From contig NZ_CAJRAF010000002.1 in NCBI RefSeq assembly GCF_907164905.1, positions 3,478,501-3,542,500 of the forward strand: a DNA stretch of 64,000 nt, read 5' to 3'. The notes under the pieces were generated by a model. That model saw only the letters and a list, made by a program, of their open reading frames with translations, did no database searches and was not told where the DNA came from. The translations under genes and the position numbers were made by a program. The DNA comes from Dyadobacter sp. CECT 9275 (GTDB lineage: Bacteria; Bacteroidota; Bacteroidia; Cytophagales; Spirosomataceae). Shown piece by piece: positions 62,001 to 64,000 of the stretch; the stretch's first letter is position 1; every line of letters starts with the position of its first letter.

Positions 62001-62030
62001 AAAAAATCCATCCTTTTGAGACGGGCTTTT
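62001..62030 (-). terminator. degenerate terminator of the interrupted 5S copy
   Basis: A second copy of the 5S terminator (GCCCGTCTCAAAAGGATGG on the minus strand, then T residues) with mismatches that weaken its stem. Confidence 0.5.
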
Positions 62031-62039
62031 AGATTTAAT

Positions 62040-62260
62040 AATTGTGGCGGCTAGACTACGCGTCCCGGACTGCGCGTCCCGCCTACTTTACCAGATCGGA
62101 CCGCGCAAGTTTGACCCAAGAGAGCGTCTCCCGGTATCATCGGCGGTTCGGGGCCGAGCCACGCTGGCTAGGCGCCCCCGGCTTAGGCAGCCCCGCTTAA
62201 CTTCTCTGTTCGGGACGGGGCGCGTAGCCTGGGAAGAGGTGAACACCAGGCCAATGGCTC
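62040..62260 (-). pseudogene. 5S rRNA-like copy with insertions in multiples of 14 nt
   Basis: Matches the normal 5S gene (62311-62418) almost base for base but is split by five GC-rich insertions: 62054-62081 (28 nt), 62095-62108 (14), 62121-62134 (14), 62155-62196 (42) and 62216-62229 (14). Its first bases on the minus strand (about 62250-62260) have decayed, so the terminal stem is broken. It is not expected to form a working 5S rRNA. Confidence 0.85.
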
Positions 62261-62264
62261 AAAT

Positions 62265-62297
62265 GAAAAAAGCCCATCCTTTTGAGACGGGCTTTTT
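62265..62297 (-). terminator. terminator of the 5S rRNA
   Basis: Read on the minus strand, GCCC pairs with GGGC across a loop and is followed by six T residues, just beyond the 3' end of the normal 5S gene. Confidence 0.6.
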
Positions 62298-62310
62298 CTT
62301 CTTATGGTAT

Positions 62311-62418
62311 TGTGGCGGCTACCTACTTTACCAGGTTTGACCCAAGTATCATCGGCGGTTCGGGGCTTAACTTCTCTGTTCGGGATGGGAAGAGGTGAAC
62401 ACCCGGCCAATAGCCACC
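62311..62418 (-). rRNA. 5S ribosomal RNA
   Basis: A 108-nt 5S rRNA with GGTGGCTA/TAGCCGCC terminal stem, the CCGAACAGAGAAGTTAAGCCC block and the 3' end TAGGTAGCCGCCAC, all on the minus strand. It lies 134 bases downstream of the 23S 3' end in the usual 23S-5S order. Confidence 0.95.
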
Positions 62419-62552
62419 AACAAGATCTTTTGAGTCATAAGTATTTAGTTCAGAGTTCGCAATAATCATATTAACTACTGCTTACTTAAAACTGTTTACT
62501 TAGTTTTCATGTCATATTGGAAGTAGAAGAGATAAAGAATGATATTAATAAT

Positions 62553-64000
<1,448 letters not shown>

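Follow-up and report, generated by a model that had tools for sequence, protein, structure and literature searches.

Expanded 5S rRNAs and 5S pseudogenes that carry insertions have been described by Stepanov & Fox 2021 (PMC7812874). In the accessible part of that work, remnant 5S genes lie in several copies behind putative terminators and are called probably not transcribed, and loop C is among the insertion sites. The Dyadobacter locus discussed here is similar in having base-paired insertions in 5S copies and in the coexistence of normal and expanded copies. The orders named in the accessible part of PMC7812874 are Clostridiales, Halanaerobiales, Thermoanaerobacterales, Alteromonadales and one halophilic archaeal order, and its text mentions neither Dyadobacter nor a name with Bacteroid- or Cytophag-. 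The segments reported there measure 13-109 nt and number 1 to 3 per RNA, whereas the copy in our window (the whole stretch of DNA analysed, 64,000 nt) holds eight segments of 14 nt; the portion of PMC7812874 available describes neither a unit fixed at 14 nt nor arrays at other loci nor a match to the target.

REPs, according to the available sections of PMC3733652 and PMC6006769, measure 20-40 bp, have stems of 5-13 bp (GTAG kind) or 8-9 bp (CGTC kind) and a terminal tag; of the two, it is the GTAG kind that is associated with Y1 genes. The Dyadobacter repeat shares with the REPs of these sections the character of short intergenic palindromes, sometimes clustered, with family-specific stems. 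In contrast to them, its unit measures 14 nt with a 3-bp stem, below the REP range in both respects, and is found in head-to-tail arrays and with a 3-nt host match. The letters G-Y-A-G in the units span loop and arm within the repeat frame, and do not appear to form an unpaired tag of the GTAG type.

The cyanobacterial STRR heptamer repeats have a 7-nt period, occur also inside rnpB and are not known to show stem compensation. The Dyadobacter repeat is likewise a short tandem repeat lodged in structured RNA genes, but its period is 14 and its arms are paired. Mitochondrial hairpin elements, the DHE of Allomyces and the RHE of sponges (PMC2800124), are small hairpin repeats too and probably spread in organelle genomes, although they are organellar and larger than the 14-nt unit, and we know of no 14-nt unit or target-matched arm in them. 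The Dyadobacter unit is filed here with the short palindromic repeats, as a variant, in a setting like that of the 5S pseudogenes in the available part of PMC7812874. No description of the repeat was found in the titles and abstract openings of the open-access literature searched.

The split 5S copy and its counterparts in Dyadobacter

The rrn operon at the end of the window contains the following features.

62548-64000, minus strand: 23S rRNA gene of this operon, truncated at the end of the window (Rfam RF02541, 1458 bits)
62310-62421, minus strand: intact 5S rRNA gene, the reference for comparison (Rfam RF00001, 71.2 bits)
62267-62297, minus strand: terminator-like inverted repeat (arms 62267-62278 and 62286-62297), then a T run, between the intact 5S and the split copy
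62041-62258, minus strand: second, decayed 5S copy (5S') with eight 14-nt segments in five places, from alignment and direct repeats
62216-62229, plus strand: one unit, CGG GGC GCGTA GCC, opposite to the 5S sense (site 36; stem pairs 3/3; host trinucleotide match 1/3)
62155-62196, minus strand: 42-nt insert of three 14-nt segments, GGG GCT GCCTA AGC and GGG GGC GCCTA GCC in frame and a third, hairpin-like, of another type
62121-62134, minus strand: one 14-nt segment of another hairpin type (GAGA-CGC-TCTC by eye; placement ambiguous by 1 nt)
62095-62108, in frame 62097-62110, plus strand: one unit, CGG ACC GCGCA AGT (stem pairs 2/3; host match 1/3), not in the sister-operon copy
62068-62081, minus strand: unit CGG GAC GCGCA GTC, at a site with one unit fewer in the sister-operon copy
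62054-62067, minus strand: unit CGG GAC GCGTA GTC
62001-62030, minus strand: second terminator-like sequence, behind the split copy, 93% similar to the first (direct repeat)

In alignment with the intact 5S gene, the split copy has inserts of 14, 42, 14, 14 and 28 nt in RNA order, some boundaries of which can slide by 1-2 nt. The alignment and a check of the letters bear out the initial annotation, which had placed inserts of 28, 14, 14, 42 and 14 nt at 62054-62081, 62095-62108, 62121-62134, 62155-62196 and 62216-62229 and had found the host sequence between them nearly unchanged: 103 of the 105 aligned host bases are identical to the intact gene. Absent from it were the hairpin nature of the units, the arrays outside rRNA and in other bacteria, and the 3-nt host match that possibly lies within the 14 nt.

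As in an expansion-segment 5S, the core is conserved and the inserts pair with themselves; the Rfam 5S model still scores the split copy at no more than 16.9 bits, a partial match that stays under the cut-off of 38, and does not list it at E <= 1. Standard 5S annotation can miss such split copies. The split copy RNA is not unusually stable when folded (z -1.25, a value that 26 of 200 shuffles reach), and its global fold is therefore left out as evidence. The copy is probably silent.

The genome of the window (G000) has three 5S matches above the Rfam cut-off. The initial annotation had suggested inspecting all rrn copies, and in the operon at C2:3,621,700 the same split copy is indeed found behind a terminator-like repeat with two fewer units: the unit of 62095-62108 is missing, and the last site holds one unit instead of two. 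Operons of one genome thus differ by whole units. At the site of 62155-62196, the first unit in this sister copy (L008) matches its host trinucleotide in 3/3 letters. The operon on C1 has a normal 5S, followed by a short stretch that is also present in the second operon. We also note that the second copy in the C2:3,621,700 operon is followed by yet another 5S remnant, the third in line and shorter, which has one unit close to its end (L008, G000:C2:3621500-3622900, about 620-700), and that the first 101 bases of L009 (G000:C1:344900-346300), at the 23S end of the third operon, read N. Within the whole genome, the GGAC-type unit with at most one mismatch has 4 matches, all in the two rrn loci, and a reversed control pattern has 3.

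The rrn regions of 32 genomes, including that of the window, were chosen from the 40 of 59 genomes with a search match and aligned. The initial annotation had proposed a search of other genomes for 14-nt insertions in 5S genes; after removal of identical regions, 36 distinct 5S' regions with an insert of at least 9 nt are present in 18 of the 32 Dyadobacter genomes, a lower bound, since a copy in G017 is visible by eye but was missed by the aligner and several contigs end inside the operon. Single units occur at about seven separate 5S sites and in both orientations, and sister operons of G013 have 3 and 4 identical units.

Among 81 distinct net insert events of at least 10 nt, which come from the 5S copies of 16 genomes, an exact multiple of 14 is observed in 47, where about 6 are expected; the binomial p of about 1e-32 against random lengths is only indicative, because the events are partly shared by descent. 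In this count, alignments with masked letters (the G013 copies included) were excluded, inserts separated by fewer than 8 host bases were merged, and identical events were counted once. Within 1 nt of a multiple of 14 lie 63 of the 81 events; the 34 that are not exact multiples are mostly of 14n+1 to 14n+3 nt. The statement in the initial annotation that all inserts are multiples of 14 therefore holds for the window copy and the sister-operon copy and fails for the genus, by the refutation test that the annotation itself had named, namely insert lengths in other copies that are not multiples of 14.

Several of the non-multiple inserts hold a second hairpin type with a four-base loop (e.g. GTGG-TACG-CCAC), so that more than one kind of hairpin insert exists. 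By eye, this type, about 14-17 nt long, is seen at sites 36 and 57 in 5S copies of G003, G034, G036 and G016. In a separate observation, the first 5S of one operon of G024 (L172, C1 end) bears one 14-nt unit and a small number of substitutions, whereas the first 5S of another operon of that genome is normal; the unit-bearing gene is possibly an expressed expanded 5S. A 14-unit run with GCC/GGC arms is situated at a contig end of G015 (L338, C3:1-200), adjoining a split 5S copy.

Pairing within the unit and match to the host

The unit follows the plan SGG (linker), GNC (arm), GCSYA (loop), GN'C (arm), in which N and N' are complementary; positions 4-6 pair with 12-14 to give a 3-bp stem in 14 nt, and all four N-N' pairs occur among the units. 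The 36 distinct 5S' regions of the 18 genomes contain 156 GCSYA loops, and in 93 of these at least three of the four flanking position pairs are Watson-Crick; a shuffle yields about 4 such loops in 69, and six other loop patterns yield 0-3 cases each.

A second view of the pairing comes from 49 distinct consensus units of period-14 arrays. These derive from 205 period-14 runs, which after removal of N-containing, short-inner-period and same-context runs left 101 arrays with GCNYA in phase and 12 without. Mutual information is highest for positions 5-13 (1.34 bits; 84% Watson-Crick), followed by 1-9 (1.18; 92%), 6-12 (0.61; 94%) and 4-14 (0.36; 78%); many of the loci had been retrieved by means of a GGAC-type pattern or a structure-aware model, and that model held the stem pairs and not 1-9. 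Positions 5-13 read AT in 17 units, CG in 14, TA in 6 and GC in 4, and 8 of the 49 are not Watson-Crick. One simple hairpin does not describe the unit in full, since the 4-14 helix is crossed by the 1-9 pair; the unit may be a tiny pseudoknot or have two alternative pairings. The arrays are mostly homogeneous inside and differ from each other by compensated stems: GAC/GTC, GTC/GAC, GCC/GGC, GGC/GCC and GCT/AGC. A covariance count on 26 two-unit arrays was set aside, as its rows had been chosen for pairing and were thus biased.

The insertions in 5S copies were assessed in a set in which the stem letters were not used. From 82 candidates of exactly 14, 28, 42 or 56 nt, those with at least 7 of 8 letters in the non-stem frame were kept, which gives 44 distinct insertions from 16 genomes. 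All three stem pairs are present in 32 of the 44, and two in 10. At site 79 the stems vary between species and are mostly still paired (GAT/ATC, GAC/GTC, AAC/GTT, GCC/GGC). It follows from this variation at one and the same site that some pairing is also kept or renewed after insertion; renewal might proceed by exchange of units, by hairpin-correcting mutation or by selection. Hairpin-correcting mutation is a known process.

The same 44 insertions were compared with the host sequence. The host trinucleotide before the unit equals the last three letters of the unit in 14 of them, where 2.2% is expected; of the others, 8 agree in two letters, 16 in a single letter and 6 in no letter. When the rows are grouped into 26 site/stem classes, 8 classes include a full match. 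The full match is missing in all rows of sites 36 and 75 and in part of sites 79 and 100, with one or no letter in agreement. A similar excess is observed at 65 arrays (80 before collapsing by left flank), in which host positions -1, -2 and -3 match the unit end in 46, 42 and 40 cases against permutation means of 39.8, 27.2 and 36.2 (p 0.004, 0.0002 and 0.017); the rows of these host-match comparisons are partly non-independent through shared descent and through shared repeats in Spirosoma. The same permutation test on the arrays finds no excess at -4 and -5 (28/65 and 15/65). A weaker excess is present at -6 (17/65, mean 11.7, p 0.014), and the 3-nt edge is therefore not perfectly sharp. From these letters, the length of 14 may be composed of 11 nt and a 3-nt copy of the target. 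The inner arm pairs with that copy, and so it matches the target as well.

Arrays outside the 5S genes

A covariance model of two units was used to search for the repeat elsewhere, where arrays of 2-44 units are found. In Dyadobacter, 22 of 48 genomes have arrays at E <= 0.001 and 32 of 48 at E <= 0.05. Within the family, 31 of 150 genomes and 18 of 36 genera have them at E <= 0.001, and in the phylum sample only 1 of 296 genomes does, which is that of the window. The contrast between genus and phylum is somewhat inflated, since at most 150 candidates per genome were scored in the genus, 50 in the family and 25 in the phylum, and the wider searches are hence less sensitive. The exact double unit of the GGAC type is present in 34 stretches of named genomes, 24 labelled Bacteroidota and 10 not; the latter belong to Granulosicoccaceae, Granulosicoccus, Pseudohalioglobus, Halieaceae, another gammaproteobacterium, Burkholderiaceae, Achromobacter, Pseudomonas oryzihabitans and Streptomyces. 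As a side observation, several arrays in genomes labelled as Proteobacteria groups or Streptomyces begin right after GTC or GTT. In plasmid records no match to the split copy was found, and in plasmid and phage records none to the unit tandem, in BLAST searches whose low-complexity filter may hide such queries.

The largest array, of 44 units, is located in G013, where an intact tRNA-His is followed by a decayed copy that holds the array in its anticodon-loop region, a layout that resembles the 5S copies. In this tRNA-His copy (L320, G013:C2:4324300-4326200, 617-1337) the array corresponds to an insert of 632 nt, and there is a further 15-nt insert. Arrays of G028 and G064 adjoin a tRNA-Met or a stretch resembling its 3' end. 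At one intergenic locus, a spacer behind the coding end reading GACAGATAG, the number of units varies between species in a qualitative comparison. For two intergenic arrays examined, no clean pair of empty and filled orthologs was found; the loci align poorly around the array and entered the comparison in mixed orientation. By eye, arrays of G013 (L321, L324, L325, L326) adjoin or sit between apparent arms of larger palindromic spacer repeats, e.g. TGGAAAGTC, and so do Spirosoma arrays (L103, L112, L114, L119), e.g. GTCCGTGTC.

Origin of the units and rival explanations

We consider it fairly probable that a redundant 5S copy has been invaded by a family of 14-nt palindromic repeats that settles in redundant RNA genes and spacers, by the 11 + 3 mechanism outlined below. 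Direct support comes from the fixed length, the sequence family, the pairing arms, the occurrence in both orientations and at several sites, the arrays elsewhere and the excess of the 3-nt host match. Movement of the unit as an event, a guiding or templating step and the way of amplification would be the further elements of this proposal. The initial annotation had taken the common length unit as a sign of a discrete insertion process. This is well supported by one sequence family in a fixed 14-nt frame, by several sites in both orientations and by whole-unit differences between sister operons; part of the multiplicity, however, is tandem amplification, signs of which are the 3 and 4 identical units in the two G013 operons and the 44-unit array.

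In the proposed mechanism, a short single-stranded or copied unit would be placed directly 3' of a host trinucleotide GN'Y. The host trinucleotide would be repeated at the end of the new unit, which makes the gain per event 11 + 3 = 14 nt. The inner arm, complementary to the target, might guide the unit to a matching target or be copied from it. Tandem amplification would then add further multiples of 14, and redundant RNA-gene copies and spacers would tolerate the inserted units. For the enzyme, a single-strand HuH transposase acting in trans is a candidate only.

In a rival reading, which we regard as unlikely, the unit is a REP-like element that a Y1 (HuH) transposase of RAYT/IS200 type mobilises in trans, with the inner arm as target guide. 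Pairing between guide and target occurs in IS608-type elements. In favour of this reading, 47 of the 48 genus genomes have PF01797 matches, GYAG is part of the unit, and complementarity between the inner arm and the host trinucleotide before the unit is frequent. Nevertheless, a sample of 20 PF01797 loci of the genus (35,920 bases; G000, G033, G003, G018, G030, G004, G013) has no credible unit nearby, with one match against 2 for each of four control loops, so that the flanking of Y1 genes by cognate repeats, as in REPs, is not seen at these loci. Moreover, the 5S copy of G020 is heavily split, although this genome has no PF01797 match. With units missing from the sampled loci and PF01797 from G020, no enzyme is claimed and the RAYT/IS200 assignment is not adopted. 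Published REPs are also larger, at 20-40 bp, and have longer stems, according to the available part of PMC3733652.

Similarly doubtful is a selected RNA structure, in which the split copy makes a 5S-derived RNA, as an expansion-segment 5S or a new small RNA, and selection maintains the extra hairpins. In the accessible part of Stepanov & Fox 2021 (PMC7812874), 5S rRNAs that carry hairpin expansions are regarded as functional. The mostly compensated stems at fixed sites, the nearly unchanged host parts and the presence of such copies in 18 of the 32 genomes agree with this explanation, but the high host identity may also arise by exchange with the intact gene. The position behind a terminator-like repeat and the partial, sub-threshold Rfam 5S match of the copy argue against it, as do the fragmentary 5S copies and the units in spacers and a tRNA-His remnant. 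In addition, the aligner found no copy in 14 of the 32 genomes, among them G017, which has one by eye, and several contigs end in the operon.

Slippage, in which a chance GC-rich repeat of 14 nt grew and shrank as a minisatellite without mobility, would account for the head-to-tail arrangement: the arrays of 2-44 units are homogeneous, and unit number differs by one between the sister operons of G013. We hold it improbable: a minisatellite would be confined to one locus, and here single units sit at about seven 5S sites in both orientations, a common frame and loop with different stem classes recur at unrelated loci, and exact double units are present in other phyla. Finally, an artefact of assembly or sequencing has practically no likelihood: nothing in its favour was found in the assembled letters, the architecture is repeated in many separately assembled genomes, including the single-contig G033, and both the sister-operon copy with two fewer units and the 5S inserts in 18 of 32 genomes make it unlikely.

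The invasion by a palindromic repeat family may be taken one step further, tentatively and with a good deal less assurance than the invasion itself. A 14-nt unit may spread in Dyadobacter and its relatives by a process that places its target in the insert two times over, directly as a 3-nt copy and, inside the unit, as the complement, with the consequence that each insertion would itself produce a hairpin with matching arms. Such a unit would be mobile and minimal, with a target set by base pairing and a second, crossing pair (1-9), and redundant 5S and tRNA gene copies would be the places where it survives best.

If units of 14 nt do spread and choose their targets by pairing, they would lie well below the 20-40 bp given for REPs in the available part of PMC3733652. 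If true, an unrecognised enzyme or repair pathway would be indicated. Spare 5S and tRNA copies would then serve as a natural record of insertion, in which the intact gene next door is the empty site; for this reason the mechanism may be read from the sequence and tested in culture.
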